The notes beneath the pieces are model-generated. The model saw only the letters and a program-made list of their open reading frames with translations. It did no database searches and had not been told where the DNA came from. A DNA stretch of 64,000 nt, taken from Mucilaginibacter cryoferens (GTDB lineage: Bacteria; Bacteroidota; Bacteroidia; Sphingobacteriales; Sphingobacteriaceae). The position numbers were made by a program, and so were the translations under genes. The stretch is from positions 89,877 through 153,876 of the forward strand of contig NZ_JACHCR010000018.1 in NCBI RefSeq assembly GCF_014205845.1, given 5' to 3'. Shown here one piece after another: positions 46,726-61,960 of this stretch (the first letter of the stretch is position 1; each line of letters begins with the position of its first letter).

Positions 46726-48330
46726 TTATCTGAACATGGCTTTAAGCGCGTCTAAAAGCACGTCAATGTGGTGATCTCCCCGGTACATAGGCAATGGCTT
46801 TTTATCAAGCTTCAAAAGGTCGTAAACAGCTGTCTGTGCAGTTCTTACTGAATACTCTACGGTGAATACTACATCATCCGGCACCTCTGCAAACTGGCCG
46901 ATAAACGCCAGGTTAGTTGAATTGTTCGGTACAACCAATGGCCTGTCTCCGTTTGCCCGCGTCAGGAATTGACTGGTGATGTAAGGCAGCATGCAAGGTA
47001 TGCAGTTAGCCGTTTTCAGTATATGTTTTTGGTCATCATCAAATCTAAGGTGCGCGAGTAATTCAGTCATGATCTCTTCTCCGCTGCAATCTGCCATCTT
47101 CTTTTTTACAAAGTTGCCTACTTCATCCACGAACAATCCATAACCCCAAAAAACGGTTACATCTTTTGGTTGGCCGATGAAATGGGGTTGATGTGCCAAT
47201 ACAATGGACATCAACCAATTGGAGTCTTTGAAAGTTACCAGGCCACCGGTGCCGGCGGTGTTGCCGGAGAATTTTTCCATCAGGTCAAAAAAGGTCTTCC
47301 CCTGGCAAGTAACGGTAAATGATTCCCATTTTGATTCGTTTACACGCTCATCAAAAACAAAAGGGCGGCCAAATTCCGGGCTGTGTGCTGCTATATTCTC
47401 CCATAATAACCAGGCTCCGTCCTTTTTCTCCGTGACAAGTTCCGGCGCCGAATGCATGGTGCCGAAACAGGAGTCCGCAGTCATGGAGCCTATCGTTACC
47501 AAAACGAGATCGTCTGTTGAAACCTTAATATCAATGGCTTTCCCGTGCTGTGTACAGCTAATCTGTTCGACGGCCATTTTTCCGTCAAGCTTTGTAAACC
47601 CAAGATCTGTAACTTTAATACCCATTTCGAAGTTTACACCCTGTTGTTTCAGCCATTTTAATAAAGGCCTGATGATGGCATCAAATTGGTTATAAGGGGT
47701 ACGGTCTACGCCTGCGAGGGTATTGATCCGCTTAAACTCATGTATAAACCGGTGTATATAGCGCTTAAATTCTACCGCGCTGTGCCAGGGTTGAAAAGCA
47801 AACATGGTATCCCACATGTACCAGAAATTTGTTTTAAAAAAAGCAGGTTCAAACCACTCGTTAATGCGTTTGGTTTCCAAATGTTCTTCGGAAACGGCCA
47901 TGATCTCCATTAAATTAAGACGGTCCGTATTAATGAAACCCATGGAAGATACATCGGTGATTTTTCCGGCTTCAACTACTCTGGCCTGGGCGTTCGTTTT
48001 TATTTTTTCGTTAAACGCTTTAATCTCTTCGTATACCGTCATGTCGGGATTATCGAGAGACGGTATAAATGATAATAGATCGTAAGTGCACAGGTAACTG
48101 AAATTGAGCATTCTGCCTCCTCTCATTACATAACCGTTTTCAGGTGTGCCTGCACTGTCCATACTGCCGCCCGCGATAGGTAATTCTTCCAGAATATGGA
48201 TGTGTTCTGCTGGAATATTCCCGTCTTTAATAAAATAAGCAGCACTTGCCAGGGAGGCTATGCCGCTACCTACCAGGTAAATTTTACGGTGTTGGTTTAT
48301 ATTGGGCTGAACTTCTTTCGAATTTTGCAT
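46726..48330 (-). CDS. ohyA: Oleate hydratase (fatty acid double-bond hydratase, MCRA family)
   Basis: 534-residue FAD protein that adds water to cis-9 unsaturated fatty acids, giving 10-hydroxy products. The N-terminal Rossmann motif is VGSGIASLASAAYFIKDG, followed by ILEELPIAGGSMDSAG and the lid region MRGGRML. In well-studied hydratases this motif is RGGRE, whose Glu activates water; Met stands there here, as I recall is natural in one family branch. PWHSAVEFKRY and the C-terminal ANGDRPLVVPNNSTNLAFIGQF are typical. It leads a minus-strand unit with GH130 and usp. The 25-bp dyad at 48412 lies 81 nt upstream. Possible role: detoxifying or remodelling unsaturated membrane lipids under stress. 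Confidence 0.9.
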   Translation of the reverse strand: MQNSKEVQPNINQHRKIYLVGSGIASLASAAYFIKDGNIPAEHIHILEELPIAGGSMDSAGTPENGYVMRGGRMLNFSYLCTYDLLSFIPSLDNPDMTVYEEIKAFNEKIKTNAQARVVEAGKITDVSSMGFINTDRLNLMEIMAVSEEHLETKRINEWFEPAFFKTNFWYMWDTMFAFQPWHSAVEFKRYIHRFIHEFKRINTLAGVDRTPYNQFDAIIRPLLKWLKQQGVNFEMGIKVTDLGFTKLDGKMAVEQISCTQHGKAIDIKVSTDDLVLVTIGSMTADSCFGTMHSAPELVTEKKDGAWLLWENIAAHSPEFGRPFVFDERVNESKWESFTVTCQGKTFFDLMEKFSGNTAGTGGLVTFKDSNWLMSIVLAHQPHFIGQPKDVTVFWGYGLFVDEVGNFVKKKMADCSGEEIMTELLAHLRFDDDQKHILKTANCIPCMLPYITSQFLTRANGDRPLVVPNNSTNLAFIGQFAEVPDDVVFTVEYSVRTAQTAVYDLLKLDKKPLPMYRGDHHIDVLLDALKAMFR

Positions 48331-48681
48331 ATGGAAAATTTATGAACTTGGTTGAAGTAATGGATGTTCCAGTACAACTCAAAATTGGAAGATTTACCCG
48401 GAGCAGGTGTTATGTAATTTTATGTATTTGTTACATCTTTCACACTTCTTTAGGTTTCCTGATTGTTGTGAAATAGGTTCGATTTGATTGTCAGGATATT
48501 TCACGCTACCTACGTAGGGGCCTTTCGAACCGACCCCGGTTGTAAGATTAATTGAGATAAATCACATAGAATGTGATCAAAATATGGGCGGCAATGATGA
48601 CTAAACCAATAAGCCGGTTTCTTTACTTAATAAAAAAAAATGACTTTAGCCGGCTCATCTCAGTAATTGATCAGTTGTTCC
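48331..48681. other. 351-nt intergenic region upstream of oleate hydratase
   Basis: Holds the 25-bp dyad element (48412-48445), a weak FNR-like site TGAG-ATAA-ATCA (48553-48564), and a widely spaced inverted repeat AGCCGG...CCGGCT (48612-48655) after the CopB stop that could be a terminator. No gene seen. Confidence 0.6.
48412..48445 (-). promoter_or_regulatory. 25-bp dyad element, copy 1 (oleate hydratase)
   Basis: Half-sites ATGTAATT and TGTTACAT are separated by 9 nt, then two bases and TTCACAC-type flank (CTTTCACAC). It lies 81 nt upstream of the oleate hydratase start, with the TTCACAC flank on the far side from the gene. One of five such elements; see copies at 54841, 59019, 59765 and 59819. 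Confidence 0.6.
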
Positions 48682-50700
48682 TTATTTGTTTTTTATTTGA
48701 AGTAGCCCTGCATTAATAGATACTACTACGGTGCTTACGGTCATCAAAACCGCACCTACAGCCGGGCTCAGTAAAATGCCTTCTTTATATAAAACTCCGG
48801 CAGCCAGGGGAAGAGCTATCACATTGTATCCTGTTGCCCAAATGAGGTTTTGGATCATTTTTCTGTAAGTGGCTTGGCCAAACAGAATCAGGCTGACAAT
48901 ATCCTTCGGGTTACTGTTTACCAGTATAATGCCTGCTGTTTCTGCCGCAATATCACTGCCAGAGCCTACCGCTATGCCTATATCGGCCTGGGCCAGCGCC
49001 GGGGCATCGTTAACACCGTCACCGGTCATCGCCACAAACTCTCCTTTGTTTTGCAGCTCTTTTATTTTTTCTAACTTTTGGTGAGGTAGTACTTCAGCAA
49101 TATAACTATCCATACCTAAAGTTTTACTTACGCTTGCAGCTACTTTACTATTGTCTCCGGTAAGGAGTATGGATTTGATCCCCGCTTGCCGGAGGGTTTT
49201 GATGGCTTCCGTTGATTCTGGTCGTAGTTCATCTGATAGCGCGATGTATCCGGCCAATTCTCTATTTACGAGAACAAATACTACTGTTTCTGTATCATTT
49301 GCTGTGTAACCCCCGGGTACTATGATGTTTTTATCTTTTAAATAACCTGGGCTAACTACCAATATATTTTTGCCCGCTATTGTAGCTTCAACACCCTGAC
49401 CAGTAATTGCATTAAAATTTGTTGCCTGCGGAATGCTGATTTTTAAGTCTTTGCTTTTCTGAAGAATGCCCGTGGCGATAGGATGTTCGGATTTTTGCTC
49501 TAATGCGGATGCCAGCCGGATGATCTCATTTTCTGAAATATCCTTATTCAGGGATTTTACTTTTGATACTTCAAATTTCCCCATGGTAAGTGTACCTGTT
49601 TTATCAAACACGATGGTGGTAATTTTTCTTGCATTCTCAAAAGCGCTTCTGTTTTTAATGAGGAGTCCATGTTTAGCCGATAAGGCTGTCGATCTGGCCA
49701 CTACGAGCGGTACAGCCAAACCCAACGCATGCGGGCAGCAGATCACGATCACCGTTACCATCCTTTCCATAGCAAAGGCTAAACTTTGGCCGGTTAAAAA
49801 CCAGTATAGAAAAGTGGCAATACCAATTACAAGTGCAACTATAGTTAACCATCTGGCCGCCCTGTCAGCCAGGAGCTGTGTTTCAGACTTTGATTGCTGT
49901 GCATCATCAACCAGCTTAATAACCTGAGCCAGGTAAGAATCTTTGGCAGGATGCGTAACGTTCACTTTAAAAGAACCGCTGCCATTAATAGAACCAGCTA
50001 TTACTTTATCCCCCTTCGTCTTTTGTACAGGCACGGATTCACCGGTCAGCATCGATTCATTGAGATAGCTATCGCCATCCAGGATAATGCCATCCGCCGC
50101 TATTTTTTCACCGGGTTTTACCAGGATAACATCGTTCACTTTTAGCATTTCTGTTTTTACATCATGTACCATGTCCGGCATCACCAGGTGTGCTTCGTCT
50201 GGCATCAGCCCAACCAGTAATTCCAGATCTTTGGATGCACCCATAACAGATCTCATTTCTATCCAGTGCCCTAAAAGCATGATGAGGATCAGGGTATCCA
50301 GTTCCCAAAAGAAATCCATCCCCTGTAACCCAAATACAACGGCAGCACTATAGCTATAAGCTACGGTAATGGCAAAACCGATGAGGGACATCATCCCTGG
50401 GTTTTTAGCTTTTATTTCATCGACCAATCCTGTTAAAAATGGCCAACCACCGTAGATGAATACTATGGAAGATAATAAGAATAAAATATAGGAAGAGCCG
50501 GTAAAAGTCCAGCTTATTCCAATAAAACGCTGTATCATAGCAGACAACAGCATATTGGGAACTGTAAGGATCGCTACGACGCAAAATCTCTTTTTAAAAT
50601 CTGCTATCATCATGCTATGATGATCATTGCCTTTCATGTTCATTGGTGGTTTATGACCATGCTGCATTTCGTTGTGAATCATTGAAACGTTCCCCGACAT
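48682..50700 (-). CDS. copB: Copper/silver-translocating P-type ATPase, CopB (P1B-3) type
   Basis: 672-residue P1B-ATPase. The N-terminus is His/Met-rich (MIHNEMQHGHKPPMNMKGNDHHSMM) and has no HMA domain. Eight membrane helices, the TGES actuator loop, CPH in transmembrane segment 6 (VICCPHALG), phosphorylation site DKTGTLT, SEHP and GDGVNDAPAL follow. CPH with a His-rich tail is the CopB branch, which exports Cu+ or Cu2+/Ag+ from the cytoplasm. The AraC-type regulator with a metal-binding N-terminus starts its stop-to-start gap only 43 nt upstream, so metal-responsive control is likely. Confidence 0.9.
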   Translation of the reverse strand: MSGNVSMIHNEMQHGHKPPMNMKGNDHHSMMIADFKKRFCVVAILTVPNMLLSAMIQRFIGISWTFTGSSYILFLLSSIVFIYGGWPFLTGLVDEIKAKNPGMMSLIGFAITVAYSYSAAVVFGLQGMDFFWELDTLILIMLLGHWIEMRSVMGASKDLELLVGLMPDEAHLVMPDMVHDVKTEMLKVNDVILVKPGEKIAADGIILDGDSYLNESMLTGESVPVQKTKGDKVIAGSINGSGSFKVNVTHPAKDSYLAQVIKLVDDAQQSKSETQLLADRAARWLTIVALVIGIATFLYWFLTGQSLAFAMERMVTVIVICCPHALGLAVPLVVARSTALSAKHGLLIKNRSAFENARKITTIVFDKTGTLTMGKFEVSKVKSLNKDISENEIIRLASALEQKSEHPIATGILQKSKDLKISIPQATNFNAITGQGVEATIAGKNILVVSPGYLKDKNIIVPGGYTANDTETVVFVLVNRELAGYIALSDELRPESTEAIKTLRQAGIKSILLTGDNSKVAASVSKTLGMDSYIAEVLPHQKLEKIKELQNKGEFVAMTGDGVNDAPALAQADIGIAVGSGSDIAAETAGIILVNSNPKDIVSLILFGQATYRKMIQNLIWATGYNVIALPLAAGVLYKEGILLSPAVGAVLMTVSTVVVSINAGLLQIKNK

Positions 50701-50743
50701 TGTATGAGTTTTAAAGGTTTTGGGATAAAACGAAATAGATCAT

Positions 50744-51301
50744 TTAGTTGTAAACAAACTCATTTGTTCTTTCTTTTTGCTTTTTAAAGTGGGTAGGGGT
50801 TAGGCCGGTGATTTTTTTGAACTGGTTGCATAGATGCGCTACGCTGCTGTATTGTAATTTATATGAAATTTCTGTAAGCGAAAGCTGATCATAAACCAGT
50901 AGTTCCTTAACCCGTTCTATTTTATGAACAATTATATAGTGCTCTATGTTGACGCCCACCGAATCAGAAAACACATTAGCCATATAGGTATAGGAGTGGT
51001 TTAACTTTTCGCTTAAATAATCCGAAAAATTGAGTTTTATAGGATGTTCTTCATAATGGACCAATTCTACTATGACATTTTTTATTTTTTCAATCAACAG
51101 GCTTTTACGGTCATATAGGATGTCTAAACCAAAATCCATCAGGGACAGTTTCAAATATGCCAGTTGCGAAGCTGATACATCGCCAATTGTTTCTACTTCA
51201 CCTAATTCAATTGTTTTGTAGGGAATGGATAGTTTTTTCAACTCTTGGCTAACAACCACTTTACAGCGGATACAAACCATATTTTTTATGTAAAGCTTCA
51301 T
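50744..51301 (-). CDS. AraC-type regulator with an N-terminal HMA-like metal-binding domain
   Basis: 185 residues in two parts. Residues 1-70 resemble a heavy-metal-associated domain: MKLYIKNMVCIRCK gives a CxxC motif (MVCIRC) in the right loop of a ferredoxin-like fold. Residues about 85-180 are a full AraC helix-turn-helix pair (LSLTEISYKLQYSSVAHLCNQFKKITGLTPTHFKK). The second HTH with FKKITGLTP is canonical. It lies 43 nt upstream of copB on the same strand, so I read it as the copper/silver sensor of that operon. The usual AraC sugar-binding domain is absent. Confidence 0.82.
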   Translation of the reverse strand: MKLYIKNMVCIRCKVVVSQELKKLSIPYKTIELGEVETIGDVSASQLAYLKLSLMDFGLDILYDRKSLLIEKIKNVIVELVHYEEHPIKLNFSDYLSEKLNHSYTYMANVFSDSVGVNIEHYIIVHKIERVKELLVYDQLSLTEISYKLQYSSVAHLCNQFKKITGLTPTHFKKQKERTNEFVYN

Positions 51302-51487
51302 TTTAAACTATTGGTTTAAAAGGCCAAACAATAAAACTAAAGGAAAGATAAATTGGATTGCAGGTGTTGAGTTTGCGATATTCCATGGTAGATTGTGGTG
51401 CCTTATAGCATTACTCAAATCTCCTGAATATCTCTTTTTATAAGAGTGACGGTGGTCACCCCCGATCATGTTTTACATCACGATTAG

Positions 51488-52489
51488 CTATTGGACGGGT
51501 AGCGCCTTATTTGCCTGCTTTTTTTTCTCCAGATCTTTAAAGTATCCCTTAAAAAAGAAGTTATGCTTTAAAGCTTCCATATTCTGGTTAAAGCCGTCCG
51601 TTCCTTTCATCACGTTATCAAGACTGATACTGATCTTCCGCGCTATCAGCGAGTCTTTAAGCAGGGCGTGTAATGTTCCATGCCCATCATTCATATCATG
51701 ATTAACGGATGTCATGATCATATTTGCCTGTAAAGTAAGTTTATTGGCATTGTCGCTGGCCGACTTTAATTTAGTTATTGCCTGTTTTAAATTACCTGCG
51801 AAGGCGGTGTCGGTCAGCAAGAGGCCGGCTGCTCCTTTCCCCTGCTTTATCTGCGTAACCAGCTCATTTAAGCCCATCGTCATATCGCTGGCATTTTTAC
51901 TTGCCTTGTTGATATTGCCGAGGGATGACTTCAAACTCGGGCCGATGGTTTTGTCATTCAAGATATCAAATATAGCGCTGCTGTCCAGGCGAAGAACCGT
52001 CGCTTTCAAAGCTTCGGATATACTGGCGATGTTATTATTGGTCTTGGAAAGTGTTTGCAACATTTCTTCGGTACTGATCAGCTTCTGCGCGGTGAGCATG
52101 TCTCCGTTACTGACGCTGAAACTCGCTGCCTTAACAGGCTGTATATTGACCACTTTATTACCCATCAGCCCTTCTGTACCTATAGCGGCTAAAGCATTTT
52201 TATGTATAAAAGATTTTACTTTACTATCAATTTGCAGGGTGACCTCAATAGTGGTATCGTTAACCATCTCAATGCTTTTAACTGTACCCGCCTGTATGCC
52301 GGAGAACAATACGTTATTCCCTTCCATTAAGCCATTTAAACTAGAAAAACGAGCCTTAAGCTCAAAGTCGCTGCCGAAGATATTACGATTCTTGCCAATC
52401 ATATAAAAGGCTACCATGAGAACCAGTAACCCGGCAAGTACAAATAACCCAAGTTTAATATTATTTTCTCCCTGTTTTGCCATGATCAT
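51488..52489 (-). CDS. mlaD: MCE-domain lipid-transport protein (MlaD-like)
   Basis: 333 residues: one N-terminal membrane helix (about 12-32, LGLFVLAGLLVLMVAFYMIG), a single MCE domain (about 38-118; SSLNGLMEGNNVLFSGIQAGTV, GTEGLMGNKVVNI), then a long helical tail (about 150-330) expected to form a tube or span the periplasm. It is the substrate-binding part of an inner-membrane phospholipid transporter. Its start overlaps the ATPase stop by one base. No periplasmic carrier or outer-membrane lipoprotein gene is adjacent, as is common outside Proteobacteria. Confidence 0.88.
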   Translation of the reverse strand: MIMAKQGENNIKLGLFVLAGLLVLMVAFYMIGKNRNIFGSDFELKARFSSLNGLMEGNNVLFSGIQAGTVKSIEMVNDTTIEVTLQIDSKVKSFIHKNALAAIGTEGLMGNKVVNIQPVKAASFSVSNGDMLTAQKLISTEEMLQTLSKTNNNIASISEALKATVLRLDSSAIFDILNDKTIGPSLKSSLGNINKASKNASDMTMGLNELVTQIKQGKGAAGLLLTDTAFAGNLKQAITKLKSASDNANKLTLQANMIMTSVNHDMNDGHGTLHALLKDSLIARKISISLDNVMKGTDGFNQNMEALKHNFFFKGYFKDLEKKKQANKALPVQ

Positions 52490-53268
52490 TATTCAAAAAA
52501 TTGTTTGATCTTTTGATCTGTCGAGTGTTCCAGTTCATCGTATGATCCGTCCGCATAGCATTTTCCGTCCAGTAATAAAATGACCCGGTCTGCTATATTT
52601 TTAACGCAGTTCATATCGTGCGAAATGATAATGGATGAGGTATGGTATTTTTTCTGTAGTTTGAGGATCAGTTGATCTATTTCCCTGGCCGTAACAGGAT
52701 CAAGACCGGTTGTAGGTTCATCGTATAAAATAATCTCTGGCTTCAGGATCAATGTCCTGGCCAGAGCGATACGTTTAAGCATGCCTCCGGATAATTCTGA
52801 TGGCATCATATCGAGCGTATGTAATAAAGCTACGTTTTCAAGGGCTTCTTTGACCATTTTTTCAACTTCCTTTTGAGATATATTGATCCAGTGCCTGCGC
52901 AAAGGGAACTCGAGGTTTTCTCTCACCGTCATGGAATCATACAGCGCGTTGGCCTGGAACAGGAAGCCAACTTTCGACCTTACCCGGTCCAGGTCATCAT
53001 CGTTTAATGCCGTTACATTTTCGCCCAAAACCATGATATTACCTTTATCAGGTTTTAATAAACCAATAACACATTTAATCAATACTGATTTACCAGCTCC
53101 TGATTTTCCGAGAACAACTACATTTTCTTCCTTATAAACGGTGAGGCTAAAATCCTCAAGCACCACATTACGGCCAAATTGTTTATACAGGTGTTCAATA
53201 ACAATAACCGGTTTGCTGGTTACGGTACCGGTCTTTTCGTCGGAAGGCGTATTTAAAACAGTTGGCAT
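52489..53268 (-). CDS. mlaF: ABC transporter ATP-binding protein (MlaF-like)
   Basis: 259 residues with Walker A GKSGAGKSV, Q-loop FLFQANALYDSMTVREN, signature SGGMLKR (LSGGM type characteristic of Mla/Ttg2A ATPases), Walker B IILYDEPTTGLD and the switch His in SHDMN. It drives lipid movement through the permease encoded immediately upstream (5-nt gap) with the MCE subunit downstream. The complete E-F-D set is in one minus-strand operon. Confidence 0.92.
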   Translation of the reverse strand: MPTVLNTPSDEKTGTVTSKPVIVIEHLYKQFGRNVVLEDFSLTVYKEENVVVLGKSGAGKSVLIKCVIGLLKPDKGNIMVLGENVTALNDDDLDRVRSKVGFLFQANALYDSMTVRENLEFPLRRHWINISQKEVEKMVKEALENVALLHTLDMMPSELSGGMLKRIALARTLILKPEIILYDEPTTGLDPVTAREIDQLILKLQKKYHTSSIIISHDMNCVKNIADRVILLLDGKCYADGSYDELEHSTDQKIKQFFE

Positions 53269-53273
53269 GATGG

Positions 53274-54044
53274 TTAATTTAATCCAATTAAGTTAGTTAG
53301 CTGAACAGTAAGCAGGTCGATAATAAATATCAGGACAGAAGAAAGTACCACGGCGGAATTGGCGGAAATGCCTACACCCTGTGTTCCTTTAGTCGAATTA
53401 AATCCTTTGTAGCATCCTATTATCCCTACGGCAAAACCGAAGAACAGCGTTTTGATTACAGCAGGCACAATATCACTGTAGGTTAAACTTTGAAATACCT
53501 GGGTAAAAAAGAAACGTAAACTGGTAACCGAACTAATGTTTACCCCTATGTAAGCGCCGAATAAAGAAATAGCATCTCCCAGTAATGTTAATATAGGTAG
53601 CATTAATGTTGTAGCTACTACCCTTGTGGCTACCAGGTATTTATAGGGATTGGTTCCGCTTACCTCCATCGCATCAATCTGTTCGGTAACCTTCATGGAA
53701 CCGAGTTCTGCGCCGATACTGCTGCCTATTTTTCCTGCAAAAATCAGGGCGGTTATCACCGGGCCTATCTCTCTCACGATGGCAATCCCTACCATTACGG
53801 GTAGTTCAGACTGTACGCCGTAACTTACCAGCGAAGGCCTTAATTGCATAGTTAGTACCAGGCCCATAATAAAACCAGTCAAGCCAACAAGCGGAAACGA
53901 TTTATAACCGATCAGGTAACACTGTGACAGCAACTCTTTGATCTCGAACCTGGGTTTAATGCCATGCGAGAAAAAGTGTCCTGCAAACCTGGATATCTTT
54001 CCGGTTTGTTCGAGGAAATCCTCCGTATTTGTTATAAGAGACAT
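53274..54044 (-). CDS. mlaE: MlaE-family ABC permease
   Basis: 256 residues with five to six membrane helices. Family landmarks are LVGLTGFIMGLVLTMQ, IVREIGPVITALIFAGKIGSSIGAELGSMKVTEQIDAMEVSG and GCYKGFNSTKGTQGVG. It is the first gene of the Mla-type operon; 51 nt separate it from the cupin gene upstream on the same strand, so a longer transcript from 54775 is possible and would put lipid transport under the dyad element at 54841. Confidence 0.92.
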   Translation of the reverse strand: MSLITNTEDFLEQTGKISRFAGHFFSHGIKPRFEIKELLSQCYLIGYKSFPLVGLTGFIMGLVLTMQLRPSLVSYGVQSELPVMVGIAIVREIGPVITALIFAGKIGSSIGAELGSMKVTEQIDAMEVSGTNPYKYLVATRVVATTLMLPILTLLGDAISLFGAYIGVNISSVTSLRFFFTQVFQSLTYSDIVPAVIKTLFFGFAVGIIGCYKGFNSTKGTQGVGISANSAVVLSSVLIFIIDLLTVQLTNLIGLN

Positions 54045-54095
54045 GTTTTAAATACCTAATGGATATAGATTAAGGCTTGCCTGCGTGATAGTAGG

Positions 54096-54527
54096 CTATT
54101 CAGTGGTTGTTCCTTCAAATTTTTCGGGGTTTTCTTCCGCTTCTTTTTTGGTTGCACGGATTATTCCGTCTTTGTGATGGGGAGGAGCATAGATGGTATA
54201 CATTTTTAACTCATTTTTGGTATCTGTGTTGATAACGTTGTGTTTGGCACCGGCAGGTACTACAATGGCATCCCCGTTTTTTACATCATAAACATGGCCA
54301 TTGATGATGCATTTTCCACTACCGCTCTCAAAACGAAAAAATTGGTCATTGGCATTATGTATTTCTTCTCCGATGTCTTCTCCTACGTCAAGACTCATCA
54401 GCACAACCTGCAGATGATTAGAGGTATACAGTACCTTTCTGAAATTTGTATTCTCCAGTGCTTCTCCTTCAATATTGTCACTAAATCCTCTCATGGGTTT
54501 AGTTTGCAGATCTTCGCTGTTTTTCAT
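54096..54527 (-). CDS. Cupin-domain protein
   Basis: 143-residue single-domain cupin. The two cupin motifs are partly kept: GEDIGEEIHNANDQFFRFESGSG (about 53-75, with the acidic pair and one His) and PAGAKHNVIN (about 97-106, with a His). Several metal ligands are present, so a metal centre is possible. C-terminal residues are charged (KKEAEENPEKFEG). Function unknown; it lies 20 nt after the SHOCT gene and in front of mlaE. Confidence 0.82.
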   Translation of the reverse strand: MKNSEDLQTKPMRGFSDNIEGEALENTNFRKVLYTSNHLQVVLMSLDVGEDIGEEIHNANDQFFRFESGSGKCIINGHVYDVKNGDAIVVPAGAKHNVINTDTKNELKMYTIYAPPHHKDGIIRATKKEAEENPEKFEGTTTE

Positions 54528-54547
54528 TTCTTTATTTTTTTTAGATG

Positions 54548-54775
54548 TTATGTGTGCCGGATTAAATCGATCTCCAGGAGTTTCTTTCTTTCATGGTACT
54601 CCTCAGGTCCGATTTCACCGGAGGCTAACCGCCTTTGTAAATTATCGAGCGGGCCAATTTTTTTATTGCGCTGACCTGGAATATCATAAGGGATGGCGAA
54701 GATCCATAATAGCAGCATGATCCATACACACCACCAGATAAAATCCATACCGTAGAAGTTATTATAGTAAAACAT
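54548..54775 (-). CDS. Small membrane protein with SHOCT domain (first copy)
   Basis: 75 residues: aromatic N-terminus YYNNFYGMDFIWW, one membrane helix (about 12-30), the linker YDIPGQRNKK and a C-terminal SHOCT motif (PLDNLQRRLASGEIGPEEYHERKK, about 41-68). SHOCT modules occur on the ends of many small envelope proteins and are thought to mediate oligomerisation. It is close to the protein at 59478 and shares its upstream DNA, so the pair arose by duplication including the promoter. It leads the cupin-mlaEFD run. Confidence 0.82.
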   Translation of the reverse strand: MFYYNNFYGMDFIWWCVWIMLLLWIFAIPYDIPGQRNKKIGPLDNLQRRLASGEIGPEEYHERKKLLEIDLIRHT

Positions 54776-54840
54776 GATCTTTCAATTACTGACTAAATTA
54801 GAACACTGTAAAGCTGGCTCATTTTACAAGTTGATGCGTT

Positions 54841-54874
54841 ATGCAATTCTTTGAATTAATTACATGATTCACAC
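54841..54874 (-). promoter_or_regulatory. 25-bp dyad element, copy 2 (SHOCT-cupin-mla run)
   Basis: ATGCAATT and AATTACAT with a 9-nt spacer, followed by GATTCACAC. It lies 65 nt upstream of the SHOCT start at 54775. About 60 further upstream bases also resemble the region before 59693, consistent with promoter duplication. Confidence 0.65.
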
Positions 54875-54942
54875 TTTTGAGTTTGAATAAACAGAGCAGA
54901 AATGTGTATAATTAGGTAAAATATCTATATAAATTGGCAGTC

Positions 54943-54956
54943 TTGATATTAATCAA
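54943..54956. promoter_or_regulatory. Perfect FNR consensus TTGAT-ATTA-ATCAA
   Basis: All ten specified bases of the FNR consensus are present. The site overlaps the last codons of the ABC exporter gene and lies 167 nt upstream of the SHOCT start, with the dyad element between. It could serve the SHOCT-cupin-mla transcript from a distant start or be fortuitous. Confidence 0.4.
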
Positions 54957-56760
54957 ACTGTGCATTATATAAATCATAATATTTACCTTTCTTCGCCAGT
55001 AAGGCATCGTGGTTTCCACGTTCCGTGATTAATCCGTTTTCCAGCACAATAATTTCATCTGCATTTCTGACAGTAGATAAGCGGTGTGCGATCACAAAGC
55101 TGGTCCTGTCTTGCATGAGCTGATCCATTCCTTTCTGTATAGTTTGTTCCGTGCGGGTATCAATTGAACTGGTCGCCTCGTCCATGATCAGGATGACCGG
55201 TTTGGAAACAGTTGCGCGGGCAATATTCAATAATTGCCGCTGTCCCTGGCTTAAATTCCCGCCATCTTTTTTCAGTATCGTATGGTAACCTTTTGGTAGT
55301 TGTTGAATAAATGTATTCGCGCCTGCTAATGTACAGGCCGCAATCACCTCTTCATCGGTCGCGGCCAGTCGGCCATAACGGATGTTCTCCATAACCGACG
55401 CTGTAAAAAGATGGGTATCCTGAAGCACGATAGCTAATAACCGTCGTAAACTGCTGCGCTTGATTTTCTGAATATTTATTCCATCAATCGTAATTTCACC
55501 TGATAGGATATCGTAAAACCGGGGCAGTAAATTCATGATCGTTGTTTTACCGGCACCAGTGGAGCCGACAAAGGCAATTTTCTGTCCGGCTTTCACATCA
55601 AGCGATATATCCTTTAATACAGTTTTAGACGTGTCGTACCCGAAGGAAACATTCTTAAACTGCACATTTCCTTTAATCGTATTTAAGACTATAGCATCAG
55701 GCGCGTCAGCTATTTCCGGTATTTCGTCCATGATCTCAAAAATTCGTTCAGCTCCAGCAAGCCCGGCCTGAAGATTATTATACTGGCTGGATATTTCGTT
55801 AACAGGACGTCCAAACTGGCGAGAGTACTGTAGGAACGCGGCTAATCCTCCCAGATCAAAACCTCTCAACACCGCTAATAAGCCACCTAGAATAGCTGTA
55901 AGCGCAAAATTTATGGTATTCAGGTTCTGGATCACAGGCATCATTACCCCGGAATATAATTGCGCTTGTGTGGCCTTATTCCGCAGATCATAATTCAGTT
56001 TTTCAAATGCGGTTTCCGTATTTCCTTCATAACAAAAAACTTTAACCACCTTTTGCCCGGTTATCATTTCTTCCACATATCCGTTTAGGTTTCCGAGTGC
56101 TGATTGCTGTGTTGTAAAAAAAGCTTTGCTTTTTTTAATGATTAGTGCGGCTACCCAAAGCATCACCGGAACGATAATTAAAGTGACCAGGGTAAGTAAA
56201 GGACTGATATAGATCATGAGCATAAAAATACCGGCCAGCGTTATCCCGCTGGTAAATAATTGTAAAACGCTGGTATTTAGCAGGTCGCTGATATTATCGA
56301 CATCATTTGTAAAACGGCTCATCAGGTCGCCATGATTGTGTGTGTCGAAAAACTTTAAGGGTAATGACTGTAGTTTATTAAAAAGGTCAGCCCTGATCAT
56401 ATTGACTGTTTTCTGAGCAACTATAATCATCAGTCGGTTTTGAAAAATTCCCGCAATAACTCCAATGACATAAATACCGAAGAGCAGGAATACCATATCT
56501 ATCAATCCCGGTACATTATGCGGAATTATATATTTATTAATGATAGGACGTAATAAATAGGAGCCCGTTAATGTAGTAGCAATGTTGATAAGCAGCAGGA
56601 CAAGAATGACAAGTATCAATATTTTTTGCTTGCTTAAATATTTCCATAACCGAAGAATGGCCTGTCCGGAGTTTTTAGGTTTTTCAGCTGAAATACCTCC
56701 ATGCCTGCCAGGTAGGCCGGATATGCTTAGTTTGTTTTTGTTTGTATCCTGCTCTTTCAT
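54949..56760 (-). CDS. ABC exporter half-transporter (permease-ATPase), consensus site subunit
   Basis: 603 residues: a 40-residue polar leader, six membrane helices (about 45-340) and a nucleotide-binding domain (about 365-600). Walker A is GSTGAGKTT, the signature is LSQGQ (canonical LSGGQ altered), Walker B LIMDEATSSID keeps the catalytic Glu, and the switch His is in AHRLS. The start overlaps the partner gene by 4 nt. The altered signature pairs with the partner's altered Walker B, the usual layout of heterodimeric exporters. Substrate unknown; multidrug or lipid efflux is typical. Confidence 0.9.
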   Translation of the reverse strand: MKEQDTNKNKLSISGLPGRHGGISAEKPKNSGQAILRLWKYLSKQKILILVILVLLLINIATTLTGSYLLRPIINKYIIPHNVPGLIDMVFLLFGIYVIGVIAGIFQNRLMIIVAQKTVNMIRADLFNKLQSLPLKFFDTHNHGDLMSRFTNDVDNISDLLNTSVLQLFTSGITLAGIFMLMIYISPLLTLVTLIIVPVMLWVAALIIKKSKAFFTTQQSALGNLNGYVEEMITGQKVVKVFCYEGNTETAFEKLNYDLRNKATQAQLYSGVMMPVIQNLNTINFALTAILGGLLAVLRGFDLGGLAAFLQYSRQFGRPVNEISSQYNNLQAGLAGAERIFEIMDEIPEIADAPDAIVLNTIKGNVQFKNVSFGYDTSKTVLKDISLDVKAGQKIAFVGSTGAGKTTIMNLLPRFYDILSGEITIDGINIQKIKRSSLRRLLAIVLQDTHLFTASVMENIRYGRLAATDEEVIAACTLAGANTFIQQLPKGYHTILKKDGGNLSQGQRQLLNIARATVSKPVILIMDEATSSIDTRTEQTIQKGMDQLMQDRTSFVIAHRLSTVRNADEIIVLENGLITERGNHDALLAKKGKYYDLYNAQFD

Positions 56761-58496
56761 CGTACAGTTCCCTTCTGCAGCTGTTGCGAAGCATATATTT
56801 CATGGTAAACGGTATTGGTTTTGATCAATTCCCCGTGCGTTCCGTTTCCTATAATTTCACCGTGATCAAGCAAAATAATCTGATCTGCAGACTGGATGGA
56901 ACTGATTCTTTGCGCTGTAATTATGGTGGTAGTTTTTTGAAGATATTGATTAAATGACGCCCTTATTTTTGCTTCTGTAGCTACATCAACAGCACTCGTG
57001 CTATCATCCAAAATGAGGACAACCGGTTTTCTGAGGATTGCTCTTGCAATACAAAGACGTTGTTTTTGTCCGCCAGATAGGTTTACACCGCTTTGTCCTA
57101 AAACCGTTTCATATTGTTCTGGGAACGCCATGATAAAATCATGTGCCTGCGCATATTTTGCAGCGGTAATGATATCTTTATCCGATGCAGTTGCGTTCCC
57201 CCATTTCAGATTTTGTTTGATGGTGCCAGAAAATAATTCATTTTGCTGTAAGATCAGATTGACCCCCGTTCGCAGATTCTTCAGGGTATAATCGTTGATG
57301 TCCATGTCATCTATCCAAATATTCCCGCTGGAAACATTATAGAGTCTTGGTATCAGCTGTATCAAAGTGCTTTTTGCAGATCCGGTCGCGCCGATAATGG
57401 CAACAGTTTTACCCGGAGCGATAGTGAAGCTGATATTCTTTAATATATATTCACTGCCTTCGGCATGGTATTTAAAGCACACATTTTTAAATTCTACCTT
57501 TCCCCTGGTAACCTGTACGTTTTTTTCTTTCGCGGTTATGGAATCTACGATTGTAGGTTTTGTATTTAATATTTCCAAAACGCGTTCTGATGATGCTTCG
57601 GCTCGTGAAAAGGCCATAATGGTCATGGAAAGCATCATCAGGGACATCAGGATCTGGGTGATATAGGTGATGAATGACATGAGTTGCCCTACCTGGAATG
57701 TACCTGAAATAATTTTATTACCGCCAAACCAAACAATGGCAACAATAGAGATATTCATGACCAGCTGCATTACCGGCATGATCAGCACTACCGTGCCGGA
57801 CGCTTTCACTGCAATTTTCCTCAGTTCATTATTGGTGAAGCTGAACTTCCTTTCTTCGAAATCTTCTCTCACAAATGACTTTATCACCCGTACATTGATT
57901 AGGTTTTCCTGGATAACACCGTTTACCTGATCCAGTTTTTTCTGCATTTTTTCAAAAAATGGCAGCCCCCTGCGAAGAATAACATATATTGTGATAGCCA
58001 ATACCGGAATTGCGACTGCAATAATGGATGCCAAACCGGCATTGATGCGTACAGCAATGACAACAGCAAACAACAACATTAAGGGCGCACGTATCAGTAA
58101 CCGTAAAGACATCATAATAACCTCCTGCAGAATATTGATATCGTTGGTTATGCGCGTAGTTAAGGAAGCTGAGCTGAACCGATCCAGATCTGAAAAGGAA
58201 AACTCCTGTATCTTGCTAAACATGCCTTTTCTGAGTTCGGCAGCAAAACCAACGGAAGCATGAGAAGAATAATAGATATTGCCAATATTGGCAGCAATGG
58301 CAACCAAAGACAACAATACCATGATGCCCCCGGTTTGGTAGATATAGGACAGGTTTTTTTGCCCAACACCTGTATCAACAATTTTTGACATCAGTTCAGG
58401 CTGAACGATTTCACAAAAAACATCTATAATAACCAGTAAAGGCGCTAATATCAGCGCCTTTTTATAGGTAAGGAAAAAGGGAAAGTATTTTCTCAT
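56757..58496 (-). CDS. ABC exporter half-transporter, degenerate-site subunit
   Basis: 579 residues with six membrane helices (about 15-300) and an ATPase domain (about 340-575). Walker A is GATGSAKST, the signature is canonical LSGGQKQR, but Walker B reads LILDDSTSAVD with Asp where the catalytic Glu should be, and the switch position is AQRIS with Gln for His. This combination marks the non-hydrolysing site of heterodimeric exporters such as TM287/288. It is the first gene of the pair. I see no regulator beside it. Confidence 0.9.
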   Translation of the reverse strand: MRKYFPFFLTYKKALILAPLLVIIDVFCEIVQPELMSKIVDTGVGQKNLSYIYQTGGIMVLLSLVAIAANIGNIYYSSHASVGFAAELRKGMFSKIQEFSFSDLDRFSSASLTTRITNDINILQEVIMMSLRLLIRAPLMLLFAVVIAVRINAGLASIIAVAIPVLAITIYVILRRGLPFFEKMQKKLDQVNGVIQENLINVRVIKSFVREDFEERKFSFTNNELRKIAVKASGTVVLIMPVMQLVMNISIVAIVWFGGNKIISGTFQVGQLMSFITYITQILMSLMMLSMTIMAFSRAEASSERVLEILNTKPTIVDSITAKEKNVQVTRGKVEFKNVCFKYHAEGSEYILKNISFTIAPGKTVAIIGATGSAKSTLIQLIPRLYNVSSGNIWIDDMDINDYTLKNLRTGVNLILQQNELFSGTIKQNLKWGNATASDKDIITAAKYAQAHDFIMAFPEQYETVLGQSGVNLSGGQKQRLCIARAILRKPVVLILDDSTSAVDVATEAKIRASFNQYLQKTTTIITAQRISSIQSADQIILLDHGEIIGNGTHGELIKTNTVYHEIYASQQLQKGTVR

Positions 58497-58589
58497 TCAA
58501 TTGGAGATCGGATCTGCTAAGACATAATTCGCCTTTATTCGGCGACATTAGCAGATGGTTAGCGTATTAACGATTTTCCGATACCGAAA

Positions 58590-58973
58590 TTAACGGGATG
58601 CAAAATAATCCTTCACAAAAGCATGTTCCTGGTTTTCTGTCATCTTATCGGTTGGGACGACAGTGAATTTTATATTCGAGAAAACATGGTTATCTTTTAA
58701 TGTGTTATATAATTCCACTTTAGCATCCGTGGGGCCAAAAAGAACCACCTCACCGTAGTCGCGGATAATTTCGCCAATTTCCCTGTAATAGTCAGCCTGT
58801 TCATGCTGTTCCTTATTGTGCATGAGATTTTCGCTCCGTTCCAGAATTTGCTCTTTTTCCTGATACGTAAATTTTGATTCAATTGTCCTGGTTGTGATAG
58901 GGCTTGCCCTAAACTCCATTAAATGAGCGTTTTGGTGATCCATGCAGATGCCAATATATTTTGCTTCTTTCAT
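58590..58973 (-). CDS. Conserved hypothetical protein, release-factor-like (eRF1 domain) fold suspected
   Basis: 127 residues from MKEAKYIGICMDHQNAHLMEF; a longer frame to 59024 adds 17 residues that overlap the dyad element, so I prefer 58973. The pattern is a beta-strand, then a Glu-rich helix (about 30-60), then YYREIGEIIRDYGEVVLFGPTDAKVELYNTLKDN and a TDKMTENQEHAFVKDYF end. This recalls bacterial proteins related to archaeo-eukaryotic release factors or the host-attachment family, but I hold that loosely. The dyad element at 59019 lies 45 nt upstream. Confidence 0.7.
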   Translation of the reverse strand: MKEAKYIGICMDHQNAHLMEFRASPITTRTIESKFTYQEKEQILERSENLMHNKEQHEQADYYREIGEIIRDYGEVVLFGPTDAKVELYNTLKDNHVFSNIKFTVVPTDKMTENQEHAFVKDYFASR

Positions 58974-59018
58974 TGCTTTTTTATAAATAAAGATGGCTTT
59001 TCTAAAGGCATAACCATT

Positions 59019-59052
59019 ACACAATTGATGATATGAATTACATCATTCACAC
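59019..59052 (-). promoter_or_regulatory. 25-bp dyad element, copy 3 (release-factor-like gene)
   Basis: Left half-site ACACAATT is degenerate, right half-site AATTACAT is perfect, spacer 9 nt, then CATTCACAC. It lies 45 nt upstream of the start at 58973. Confidence 0.55.
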
Positions 59053-59086
59053 ATTTTTCCGAACTAAACTATACAAGGTCACTACT

Positions 59087-59380
59087 TCAGCTGGCCTTGA
59101 GCGTTAAGAAATCAATCAGGTATTGTTCCAGTAAGCCGCTATTGTATTCTGGGCTGATATTGTTCTCTGTAACGGTAATTTCTTTTTCGGTGACGATTAT
59201 AGAAAAGGCAATTCCCTCAATAACATCCGGAAACATCACATTGATCACATCTTCCACGTGAGCAAATTCTATATTCAACCCTGAATCTAATTTACTATCG
59301 ATATAGTCGGCAAAATCATTTTTTAAAATACCAAAAAGTCCTTCTGCGCTCAGGGAAGCTATGTTTTTAATAGGTGTCAT
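59087..59380 (-). CDS. Hypothetical protein
   Basis: 97 residues with no family I recognise. It is acidic and alternates helix and strand: SAEGLFGILKNDFADYIDSKL, then VEDVINVMFPDVIEGIAFSIIVTEKEITVTENN, then LLEQYLIDFLTL. No signal peptide or membrane helix. It is between the SHOCT gene (59478) and the release-factor-like gene on the same strand, with about 100 nt on each side, so it may be on the SHOCT transcript. Confidence 0.6.
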   Translation of the reverse strand: MTPIKNIASLSAEGLFGILKNDFADYIDSKLDSGLNIEFAHVEDVINVMFPDVIEGIAFSIIVTEKEITVTENNISPEYNSGLLEQYLIDFLTLKAS

Positions 59381-59477
59381 CGTTTATTGGGTTTTGAAAT
59401 GTATTTTATAGTGTTGTTTAGAAAAGGTAACTGTTCCTATTGTGGAAGTTAATCGATTAGAGCGAACAGGTATTGTA

Positions 59478-59693
59478 TTATAAGTCTGCTTCAATGATTT
59501 TTTTCCTCTCCTGATAATCTTCCGGCCCTATCTCGCCTGAAGCGAACCGCTTTTGCAAGATATCCAAAGGGCCGTTTTTTTTATTCCGTTGAAAGGGAAT
59601 ATCATATGGAGTTGCGAAGATCCAGAATAGCAGCATGATCCATATGCACCACCAGATAAAGTCCATACCCCAAAAGTTATTATAATAAAACAT
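59478..59693 (-). CDS. Small membrane protein with SHOCT domain (second copy)
   Basis: 71 residues, near-duplicate of the protein at 54548: YYNNFWGMDFIWW, one membrane helix, YDIPFQRNKK and PLDILQKRFASGEIGPEDYQERKK. I start at 59693 to match the paralogue; an ATG at 59735 would add 14 residues from the leader. The upstream region, including dyad copy 4 and the stretch next to it, also matches that of the first copy. Downstream genes differ (here a hypothetical protein, there a cupin and mla), so only gene and promoter were duplicated. Confidence 0.82.
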   Translation of the reverse strand: MFYYNNFWGMDFIWWCIWIMLLFWIFATPYDIPFQRNKKNGPLDILQKRFASGEIGPEDYQERKKIIEADL

Positions 59694-59764
59694 GATGTTG
59701 ATTTTTAAATGATCGTTTAATTGAGAACACTGCAAAACTGCCCCCTTTTGTAGGATGGTGTGTT

Positions 59765-59798
59765 ATGCAATTCTTTTAATTAATTACATGATTCACAC
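59765..59798 (-). promoter_or_regulatory. 25-bp dyad element, copy 4 (second SHOCT gene)
   Basis: ATGCAATT and AATTACAT with 9-nt spacer, then GATTCACAC, 71 nt upstream of 59693. It is 20 nt from copy 5, which faces the other way. Confidence 0.65.
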
Positions 59799-59818
59799 TT
59801 TTAAAAGCACATCACAGG

Positions 59819-59852
59819 GTGTGAATTATGTAAGGTATAATCAGAGTTGTGT
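59819..59852 (+). promoter_or_regulatory. 25-bp dyad element, copy 5, inverted (gene at 59981)
   Basis: On the + strand it reads GTGTGAATT, then ATGTAAGG, 9 nt, AGTTGTGT: the reverse complement of the other copies, with both half-sites slightly degenerate. It lies 128 nt upstream of the divergent gene at 59981. The orientation again puts the GTGTGAA block on the side away from the gene. Confidence 0.5.
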
Positions 59853-59980
59853 AATGTCTTACCTTATGATTGTCCGACCTTTATACTGTTTATGGTTCAG
59901 GATGATATCTGTCAGTTACGGTGTAACCATGAGATAGATATGCTTAAGGACATTGGCTTGTAACGTTAAATTAAAATAGA

Positions 59981-60244
59981 ATGAGTTACGAAATCATACA
60001 AACAGCAGATAGCGATGTCATGAAGTTCTTGCACATTACATCGGTTATTTATAAGAAATGGAAAGTCTGGCGGGTTCAGTTTCATGACGGGAAAGAAACG
60101 TTCTTATATAGATGCGGTAAGGAATGGGTGCATTGGAGCAAAGACTACCTTGATAAACCTGCTTTGCAAGCAGTCGGGGAATGTGTTGAAGCTATTGTGA
60201 TCAGAAAACACCTGAAAGGAATTTTTGAATTACCAATTAATTAA
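59981..60244 (+). CDS. Hypothetical protein
   Basis: 87 residues, unrecognised. MSYEIIQTADSDVMKFLHITSVIYKKWKVWRVQFHDGKETFLYRCGKEW has alternating strand character rich in Trp and Tyr, and the C-terminus is a helix (KPALQAVGECVEAIVIRKHLKG). No signal or membrane segment. It starts the plus-strand unit with the oxidoreductase (4-nt gap), DJ-1 protein and P-ATPase; dyad copy 5 is upstream. Confidence 0.65.
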   Translation: MSYEIIQTADSDVMKFLHITSVIYKKWKVWRVQFHDGKETFLYRCGKEWVHWSKDYLDKPALQAVGECVEAIVIRKHLKGIFELPIN

Positions 60245-60248
60245 CGAT

Positions 60249-61244
60249 ATGAACAAAGTAATCCTGTTAGATAAAAGACCAGTTGGAAAACCGCAGATTA
60301 GTGATTTTAAGATCAACATAGAAGATGTGCCGGTAGCTGACGACGGTGAAATATTATTGCAAACACGTTATGTTTCGATAGATCCATACCTGCGAGGAAG
60401 AATGAATGATGCGGAGTCATACGTCCCGCCATTTGAATTGAAAAAGCCGTTACAGTCAGGTATTATAGCTGAGGTTATCGATTCAAATAACACGCGCTTT
60501 AAAATAGGGGACTTTGTTTTGGGAAACCTGGATTGGAAGGAGTACCAGGTATCCGACGGGAAGGGTTTGCGTTCAATTCCGAACGAACCAGCCTACTTAA
60601 CGGCCTACCTGGGCATTTTGGGGATGACCGGTCTGACCGCTTATTTAGGACTTACTCAGATAGGCTTTCCAAAACCGGGTGAAACTTTAGTTGTTTCTGG
60701 GGCAGCAGGTGCTGTTGGCAGTATTGCCGGTCAGGTGGGTAAGTTTCTGGGATGCAGGGTTGTTGGCCTCACGGGTTCGGATGAAAAGGTTCAGCTGCTA
60801 AAATCAAAATTCCATTTCGATGAGGCTATCAACTATAAAACTACCGTGGATCTGAACCGGGCCATTAAAGCAGCATGCCCAGATGGGGTTGATATTTATT
60901 TTGATAATGTAGGTGGCAAAATATCAGATGCTGTTTTAAACAATATTAATAAATATGCCCGCATACCGCTATGCGGAGCCATTTCCTTATACAATGAATC
61001 GGGGCCTGTATTGGGACCTTATATCCAGCCCATCCTTGTCAAAAAGAGTGCGCTGATACGTGGATTTATTGTTTCTGATTTCGCAGATCAATTTCCGGCT
61101 GCCACTAAGCAATTAACCGCCTGGCTCATGGAAGGCAATCTCAGCTATCATGAAACCATTTACGAAGGCTTTGACCATATTCCGCAGGCATTCCTGGGGC
61201 TGTTTGACGGCAGTAATGAAGGAAAAATGATCGTTAAAATTTAA
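60249..61244 (+). CDS. NADP-dependent oxidoreductase (MDR family, leukotriene B4 dehydrogenase/CurA type)
   Basis: 331 residues with the zinc-free medium-chain reductase layout: RYVSIDPYLRGRMNDAESY, then a Rossmann fold with VSGAAGAVGSIAGQVGK (about 145-161), VGLTGSDEKV for NADPH, YFDNVGGK and CGAISLYN. Members reduce activated C=C bonds of alpha,beta-unsaturated aldehydes and ketones, which are products of lipid peroxidation. I start at 60249 (MNKVILLDKRPVG) rather than at 60225. The gene lies 4 nt after the small gene and 26 nt before the DJ-1 gene. Confidence 0.9.
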   Translation: MNKVILLDKRPVGKPQISDFKINIEDVPVADDGEILLQTRYVSIDPYLRGRMNDAESYVPPFELKKPLQSGIIAEVIDSNNTRFKIGDFVLGNLDWKEYQVSDGKGLRSIPNEPAYLTAYLGILGMTGLTAYLGLTQIGFPKPGETLVVSGAAGAVGSIAGQVGKFLGCRVVGLTGSDEKVQLLKSKFHFDEAINYKTTVDLNRAIKAACPDGVDIYFDNVGGKISDAVLNNINKYARIPLCGAISLYNESGPVLGPYIQPILVKKSALIRGFIVSDFADQFPAATKQLTAWLMEGNLSYHETIYEGFDHIPQAFLGLFDGSNEGKMIVKI

Positions 61245-61270
61245 TCTTGTAAAAATTATAAAGCGCAAAT

Positions 61271-61954: not shown

Positions 61955-61960
61955 TCAATA

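Follow-up and report, generated by a model that had tools for sequence, protein, structure and literature searches.

AraC-type activators provide the closest described layouts for the regulatory element reported here. At the Escherichia coli araBAD promoter, AraC uses the half-sites I1 and I2, which are about 21 bp apart and lie just upstream of and overlap the -35/-33 region, and the AraC-family proteins MarA, SoxS, and Rob govern stress regulons. CueR, CsoR, CopY, and CusR are known copper regulators. We analyzed a 64,000-nucleotide (nt) stretch of the Mucilaginibacter cryoferens genome (NCBI RefSeq assembly GCF_014205845.1, contig NZ_JACHCR010000018.1, forward-strand positions 89,877 to 153,876), referred to below as the window. 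A preliminary description of this DNA, made from its letters, had reported five copies of a 25-bp dyad upstream of unrelated genes. These copies belong to a longer element of 37 bp which, judging from sequence, is very probably the operator of a family of one-component activators in which an HMA-type domain at the N-terminus is fused to an AraC-type domain at the C-terminus; the putative member in the window is encoded at 50744-51301.

Like AraC at araBAD, the proposed system has a matching half-site layout and a protein with a C-terminal AraC-type domain, and it would activate a weak promoter. It differs in that the N-terminus is HMA-like rather than a sugar-binding cupin, that there are many targets, and that the promoter has a Bacteroidota -7 box. 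The likeness to MarA, SoxS, and Rob is that an AraC-type protein would serve many unrelated protective and efflux genes; in contrast to them, the fused HMA-like domain suggests direct sensing, and the operator, besides being longer, keeps a strict distance from the -7 box. Control of copper-transporting ATPase (Cu-ATPase) genes from an adjacent gene, proposed here for one branch of the regulators only, recalls CueR, CsoR, CopY, and CusR, whose families are unrelated to HMA-AraC proteins. In the main text of a 2024 survey of one Flavobacteriaceae genome, the copper candidates are ArsR/SmtB-like and CusR-like, the MerR and CopY relatives lack a copper site, and the term AraC is not used (PMC11213822); relative to that text, the HMA-AraC protein would add a candidate copper sensor of a kind not named there. 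Among titles and the opening lines of abstracts in the open-access literature, we recognized neither an HMA-AraC fusion nor the 37-bp motif, which is not proof of novelty.

The 37-bp element and its promoter architecture

The element reads GTGTGAATnATGTAAC-n10-ARTTRYRTAAY and occurs seven times in the 6.95-Mb genome, with five copies in the window and two on contig C35. We built a sequence-only covariance model (R1) from 70 sites of other genomes, with no site from M. cryoferens included; applied to the M. cryoferens genome, it returned the same seven sites at E values of 1e-8 or lower and an eighth match at 0.02. In the window, copy 1 lies at 48409..48445 on the minus strand, before the oleate hydratase gene 46726-48330 (E value 2.5e-9); copy 2 at 54838..54874 (minus), before the SHOCT gene 54548-54775 (1.2e-11); copy 3 at 59016..59052 (minus), before the gene for a 127-amino-acid (aa) protein and two ABC exporter-like genes (3.6e-10); copy 4 at 59762..59798 (minus), before a paralogue of the SHOCT gene at 59478-59693 (1.9e-11); and copy 5 at 59819..59855 (plus), divergent from copy 4 and before the run that starts with 59981-60244 (2.2e-9).

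All five elements named in the preliminary description are present, and, as it had stated, every copy precedes a gene that is read from the same strand. For copies 1 to 5, the start codon follows after about 79, 63, 43, 69, and 126 nt; the preliminary description had given 45 to 128 nt. The copies are also intergenic, with two reservations that come from a mechanical list of open reading frames (ORFs): short ORFs at 48246-48476 (plus) and 59755-59937 (plus) overlie copies 1, 4, and 5, and the gene behind copy 3, if extended to a TTG start, runs into that copy. We took the ORFs and the extension that overlap copies 1, 3, 4, and 5 to be presumably spurious. Copies 2 and 4, which were said to share a duplicated promoter, precede paralogous small genes, the first of which matches SHOCT, and the motif with 60 nt on each side is 64% identical between them in an ungapped comparison.

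The unit itself had to be revised. The 25-bp dyad, whose length and 9-nt spacer had been described as exact in all five copies, matches exactly only at 54841 and 59765, has two mismatches at 48412 and 59019, and has more than three at 59819. In its strict form, ATGYAATT-N9-AATTACAT, it matched the window 11 times compared to 4.2 expected, a count reached in 4 of 100 shuffles. The strict dyad alone is a weak signal, and the longer element is the significant one; we dropped the dyad as the unit, as too loose and absent from copy 5, and replaced it with the 37-bp element. The form GTGTGAA-NN-ATGTAA-N13-TTRYRTAAY is exact at all five window copies. A narrower form with TTGYRTAAY, composed from the window copies themselves, is exact at four of the five, with one mismatch at 48409; allowing up to three mismatches, it matched the M. 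cryoferens genome nine times (seven at zero or one mismatch, two at three), and the reversed pattern gave no match.

We scanned 100 genomes: that of M. cryoferens, about 60 listed under its genus by table, and one from each of 39 other families. With model R1, 36 of the 100 counted as motif genomes, a number that is not independent of training, given that the model was trained with sites from many of the scanned genomes. A match at an E value of 1e-3 or lower was detected in 11 of the 39 genomes from other families, and one Balneolota locus also carries a site. The motif is patchy, with 19 of the 100 genomes having it at one mismatch or less. A scan with a strict matrix gave 58 sites and none in reversed sequence over 393 kb, which is partly circular, as many of these sites built the matrix; three of the 58 were flagged inside an ORF, and we read these as over-long ORF calls. 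Cleaner tests are the covariance model without M. cryoferens sites and the loci chosen by their AraC protein, described below. The preliminary description had suggested a genome scan and had held that sites mainly inside genes or at random positions would speak against a regulon; the seven sites of the M. cryoferens genome showed no such distribution. We conclude that the operator and promoter architecture is real and occurs in several families of the class.

Downstream of the element, a second feature is conserved at a fixed distance. The TT at positions 62-63 from the motif start is invariant in 67 aligned sites, and TT at offset 62, which is 25 nt past the motif, is present in 197 of 208 unique sites from many genomes, compared to 9% on average at the remaining offsets, with 61-63 excluded. 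The matrix used to find the sites did not cover the TT position. With base counts of 172 for A59, 200 for T62, 199 for T63, 157 for T64, and 117 for G65 among the 208 sites, the TT is embedded in the consensus CAnnTTTG, which is a variant of the TAnnTTTG -7 box of the phylum. A box like that of Bacteroidota housekeeping promoters is present, and its first base deviates, being C in 93 and T in 49 of the 208 sites, a departure from the canonical T. In the window, the -7-like boxes are CAATTTTG (copy 1, in 48380..48388, minus), CAGCTTTA (copy 2, in 54809..54817, minus), CATCTTTA (copy 3, in 58987..58995, minus), CAGTTTTG (copy 4, in 59733..59741, minus), and GACCTTTA (copy 5, in 59876..59884, plus).

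In Flavobacterium psychrophilum, the housekeeping -7 box (TAnnTTTG) occupies positions -12 to -5 (PMC9723704). Scaled to this, the motif extends from about -70 to -34, and the median of 67 nt between motif end and start codon leaves a leader of about 33 nt. Across families, spacers vary, and the half-sites and the distance to the -7 box are kept. Because a -7-like box follows at a fixed distance, the 37-bp element is likely an upstream, activator-type operator at about -70 to -34, and a -7 box that begins with C would fit a promoter that needs an activator.

We also quantified internal symmetry in 150 strong sites. As a direct repeat at a lag of 21 bp, the element has a mean identity of 0.545, compared to at most 0.32 at other lags from 17 to 25; as an inverted repeat, it has a mean identity of 0.525, compared to mostly about 0.3 at other centers, with values up to 0.45 over few columns. 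The inverted repeat of the preliminary description therefore holds; its unit of 25 bp with a 9-nt spacer does not, as the element is 37 bp long and is equally a 21-bp direct repeat. A 21-bp direct repeat suits an AraC-type protein, and the layout appears to be that of AraC/XylS operators, with direct-repeat half-sites upstream of or overlapping the -35 region.

The candidate controller and its linkage to the element

The preliminary description had noted that the controller need not be in the window. Co-occurrence with the motif makes an AraC-like gene inside it the best candidate, and its 185-aa product (50744..51301, minus strand) is the probable controller of the element. This protein has a C-x-x-C at residues 10-13 and a C-terminal HTH_18 domain; in Pfam, its C-terminus matches PF12833 (E value 2.1e-15) and PF00165 (1.3e-6). 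We aligned it with proteins from 52 of 80 loci fetched by their AraC protein (alignment A2), and HTH_18 and HTH_AraC domains were detected in all 53 members scanned. In the AlphaFold model (predicted local distance difference test score 92.3), a ferredoxin-like N-terminus is joined by a linking helix to the AraC domain, which has the predicted helical fold with two helix-turn-helix motifs. The top Foldseek matches were AraC-type domains, including AraT, YesN, and the DNA-binding domains of MarA and AraC, and MarA, SoxS, and Rob were among the structural matches. By domain matches and predicted fold, the window protein is a member of the AraC family.

The N-terminal domain is assigned to the HMA family by predicted fold and by relatives. 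Its predicted order is beta-alpha-beta-beta-alpha-beta with the CxxC in the first loop, as in the HMA fold. Copper chaperones appeared in Foldseek as weak matches at E values of 0.06-0.1. Pfam matched HMA in 6 of the 53 members; a profile of the 53 matched two copper-ATPase HMA constructs at 0.002-0.0025, with no single stretch passing alone; and a Flavobacterium relative has an N-terminus that matches the HMA region of a human-type copper-transporting ATPase 2 at 3.7e-7. The predicted domain resembles CopZ, Atx1, and the HMA domains of Cu-ATPases in its ferredoxin-like fold and in the CxxC of its first loop. It differs from them in being fused to a DNA-binding domain and in that residue 10, the first cysteine, is serine in 17 of the 91 relatives (out of 125 rows) whose N-terminus reads cleanly. 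Copper sensing may have been lost in the part of the family with SxxC.

The regulator gene and the motif are linked across genomes. A strong AraC homologue, defined as about 179 bits or more by a cut picked after viewing the list, is present in 28 of the 36 motif genomes and in 8 of the 64 others (Fisher p = 7e-11); for any homologue at an E value of 1e-12 or lower, the counts are 33 of 36 and 32 of 64 (p = 1.3e-5). A site and an AraC gene are less than or equal to 400 bp apart in 24 of the 36 motif genomes, and in 21 of these 24 the distance is 16-44 bp. Eleven of the 24 (G004, G005, G020, G024, G037, G043, G053, G055, G056, G084, and G092) gave no site to the model. Where a genome has a single site, it lies within 36 bp of the AraC gene in 12 of 17 cases, the exceptions being G001, G013, G030, G051, and G089. 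In the reverse test, 80 named loci were fetched by the AraC protein alone, at least four of them being contigs that had supplied sites to the matrix; 55 carry at least one site, and in 48 a site is no more than 400 bp from the AraC gene. These loci hold 99 sites in 908 kb, compared to 3 in reversed sequence, and TT is in place in 94 of the 99. Among 142 genes that follow a site, 9 encode an AraC protein, which suggests autoregulation.

Several results weigh against this assignment. The nearest site in M. cryoferens is 2.3 kb from the regulator gene, in 12 of the 36 motif genomes no AraC gene lies within 400 bp of a site, and in 25 of the 80 AraC loci no site scores above the cut. At an E value of 1e-12 or lower, no homologue was detected in 3 of the 36 motif genomes, G015 (71% complete), G030, and G065; conversely, 32 of the 64 motif-less genomes have some homologue, and 8 of them a strong one. 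Several genomes have two to five AraC homologues, and any of these may serve a given site. The dyad and the direct repeat score nearly alike, so the binding mode may follow either. As for the HMA assignment, Pfam gave no HMA match for the window protein itself at an E value of 0.01 or lower, and the serine at residue 10 in some relatives counts against copper sensing in that part of the family.

We infer the DNA binding, activation, and signal of the HMA-AraC protein as follows. Two subunits would bind two 16-bp half-sites (motif positions 0-15 and 21-36), which are 21 bp apart, on one helix face. The bound subunits would sit between about -70 and -34, overlapping the -33 region, where the activator would assist the housekeeping sigma factor at a weakened -7 box (CAnnTTTG in place of TAnnTTTG). 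Genes for envelope upkeep, efflux, detoxification, and general protection would be turned on. In the branch beside copper-ATPase/HMA genes, the regulator probably senses copper or another soft metal; in other lineages, including that of the window copy, the same promoter design stands before many stress-type genes.

Target genes and rival explanations

The preliminary description had inferred a regulon from the unrelated genes behind its five sites, and wider sampling strongly supports this. Taking sites that score 20 or more, have the TT, and precede a complete gene, we obtained 142 downstream proteins in 64 sequence clusters, from many Bacteroidota, with conserved orientation and distance. 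The largest cluster comprises 22 lipoproteins whose representative (L132) matches Ice_binding, and the next comprises 14 small proteins that look cupin-like by eye. We ran Pfam on 62 of the 64 cluster representatives (alignment A3), omitting two short ones. Among the matches listed, which are the first 25 of 74 families, are ferritin-like proteins, alcohol and aldehyde dehydrogenases, oleate hydratase, BON, and outer-membrane efflux proteins, as well as YceI, MlaE, Band_7, HMA, DUF326, and others. DUF326 was detected in two of the 62 representatives, one of which matches the copper-storage protein Csp1 at an E value of 2e-12 (47 bits, below the cut-off of 100).

A Crp/Fnr-type regulator could bind the element instead, either the one encoded on C35 or the fusion protein at 34488-35543 (receiver, cyclic-nucleotide-binding, and Crp domains), which stands with a PAS histidine kinase. 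TGTGA resembles the classic CRP half-site, the C35 Crp/Fnr gene lies 4.2 kb from a site, and in genome G075 a site lies upstream of a Crp/Fnr gene. The spacing of the element, as we read it, does not fit the CRP palindrome, and homologues of the C35 protein (E value 1e-30 or lower) are present in 13 of the 36 motif genomes and 26 of the 64 others (p = 0.74); the nearest homologue is 87 bp from a site in G075 and more than 4 kb away in the four other genomes where the two share a contig. We rejected the C35 protein as the controller on this co-occurrence; by this test, made with the C35 protein, the sites do not form a Crp/Fnr regulon, and we give the Crp/Fnr explanation as a whole a slim chance. 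The chance is slimmer still that the sites are copies spread by gene duplication or by horizontal transfer of stress islands and bind nothing specific. Sites do cluster in islands, site-bearing SHOCT-type genes are duplicated, and the distribution is patchy, as such spread would have it; the 142 downstream proteins nevertheless fall into 64 clusters, and the half-sites and -7 distance hold across families while the spacers vary. Least probable of all is that the element is not an operator but the promoter of an alternative sigma factor, a reading that would account for two conserved blocks at fixed spacing before genes. With the housekeeping-like -7 box 25 nt downstream, the element would sit at about -70 to -34, further upstream than core promoter contacts reach, and given this separate box we judged a sigma-factor promoter unlikely; no search for sigma-factor genes was made.

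A further alternative concerns the signal and is compatible with an HMA-AraC activator at the site: the protein may sense iron, zinc, redox state, or general envelope stress rather than copper. We rate this as a serious possibility, just short of an even chance. The breadth of the targets (ferritin/Dps-like, BON, ice-binding-like, alcohol dehydrogenase, YceI, oleate hydratase, and outer-membrane efflux) and the relatives with SxxC favor it. Copper is favored by the Cu-ATPase gene directly behind the window regulator, by DUF326 among the target representatives, including the one with the below-cut-off Csp1 match, and by the CxxC that is retained in all 23 cleanly read relatives labeled as neighbors of HMA/Cu-ATPase genes.

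Regulator branches and the genes around the sites

We placed the regulators on a quick-search tree of 111 of the 125 rows, after dropping 14 that were short or without a clean start; neighbor labels came from regular expressions rather than curated families, and 55 rows have no label. The 28 relatives with a copper-ATPase/HMA neighbor downstream are all on the same side of a single branch (support 94), and the six beside ice-binding-like lipoproteins form one group (support 99). The 22 regulators from loci with several strong sites require two changes on the tree and lie outside the metal group. In the metal branch, the site has diverged to CTGTAAATnTTACAAATCATTnCCAAAATTGTATAAn and is about as far from a -7-like box as elsewhere; these variant sites were chosen by their matrix score with extra credit for the TT, which means that the spacing to the -7 box does not count as independent support. 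A variant site scores above the cut in 28 of 31 upstream regions of the metal branch, some of which are near-copies.

We tentatively propose that HMA-AraC proteins form a widespread, undescribed class of one-component sensors of soft metals that control copper efflux in many Bacteroidota. In several lineages, the sensor would have been duplicated together with its promoter design and rewired to run a general envelope and stress regulon, partly losing the first cysteine that binds metal. If true, a local metal switch would have turned into a global stress regulator, and the system may illustrate how a metal regulator with one target becomes a global regulator. In the Bacteroidota, a large group of protective genes can now be assigned a defined operator and promoter architecture, together with a named candidate regulator. 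With site, spacing, and protein all specified, the operator claim and the copper-sensor claim can each be put to a direct test in laboratory strains.

The genes behind the window copies are as follows. Copy 1 probably serves the oleate hydratase gene (MCRA family, 46726..48330, minus strand). Copy 2 heads a same-strand run that includes mla-like genes, the AraC gene, and the Cu-ATPase gene, with 186 nt between the MlaD-like gene and the AraC gene. Its probable targets are the genes for the SHOCT-domain small protein (54548..54775, minus), a 143-aa protein that is cupin-like by eye and has a weak NCBIfam match below the cut-off (54096..54527, minus), and mlaE-, mlaF-, and mlaD-like genes (51488..54044, minus), named from best NCBIfam matches that are all below curated cut-offs. 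The copper-translocating P-type ATPase gene (48682..50700, minus; TIGR01511, 593 bits compared to a cut-off of 397) lies directly downstream of the candidate controller gene. A scan of 50650-54900 for sigma-70 promoters and terminators was uninformative, with counts of eight promoters (shuffled mean 12.0) and seven terminators (3.4).

The 127-aa protein (58590..58973, minus) is the probable target of copy 3; it had been called release-factor-like, and neither Pfam nor NCBIfam gave a match for it. The two ABC exporter-like genes behind copy 3 lie at 56757-58496 and 54949-56760. Copy 4 probably serves the SHOCT-gene paralogue (59478..59693, minus), and copy 5 a four-gene run (59981..63910, plus) that encodes an 87-aa protein (59981-60244), an NADPH-oxidoreductase-like protein, a DJ-1-like protein, and a P-type ATPase. 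The ORF of this ATPase (61961-63910) closes 90 nt before the contig end (C18:153876) and matches positions 16-664 of an 867-position model, so the gene looks cut short; as a guess, C35 might adjoin this end of the contig. One C35 site lies before an outer-membrane efflux gene that heads a run resembling MacAB-TolC by eye, and the other lies before a BON-domain gene. Beside the latter is a shortened divergent copy (L005:1426-1448, minus) in which GTGTGAATGATG is followed directly by TGTTGTGTAAG, with most of the spacer gone.

Some further observations concern regulators. The window segment 34488-36729, in which the receiver/cyclic-nucleotide-binding/Crp-HTH fusion adjoins the PAS histidine kinase, is a possible sensory two-component pair and lies near genes that look universal-stress-like and BON-like by eye. 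In G075, the strong site upstream of the Crp/Fnr gene (L058:8041-8908) hints at a regulatory cascade. M. cryoferens also has an AraC paralogue, 44% identical (G000:C24:4895-5437), which falls with the metal branch on a long end branch, its placement being unsure; a weak site-like match (C24:7940-8000, E value 0.05) lies about 2.5 kb from it. In L163, from Bacteroidetes bacterium UKL13-3, an in-frame stop codon falls within the matched AraC stretch. At L073, L074, L076-L078, L085, L089, L090, L094, L104, and L132, an AraC gene lies directly before a lipoprotein gene, with one site between them.

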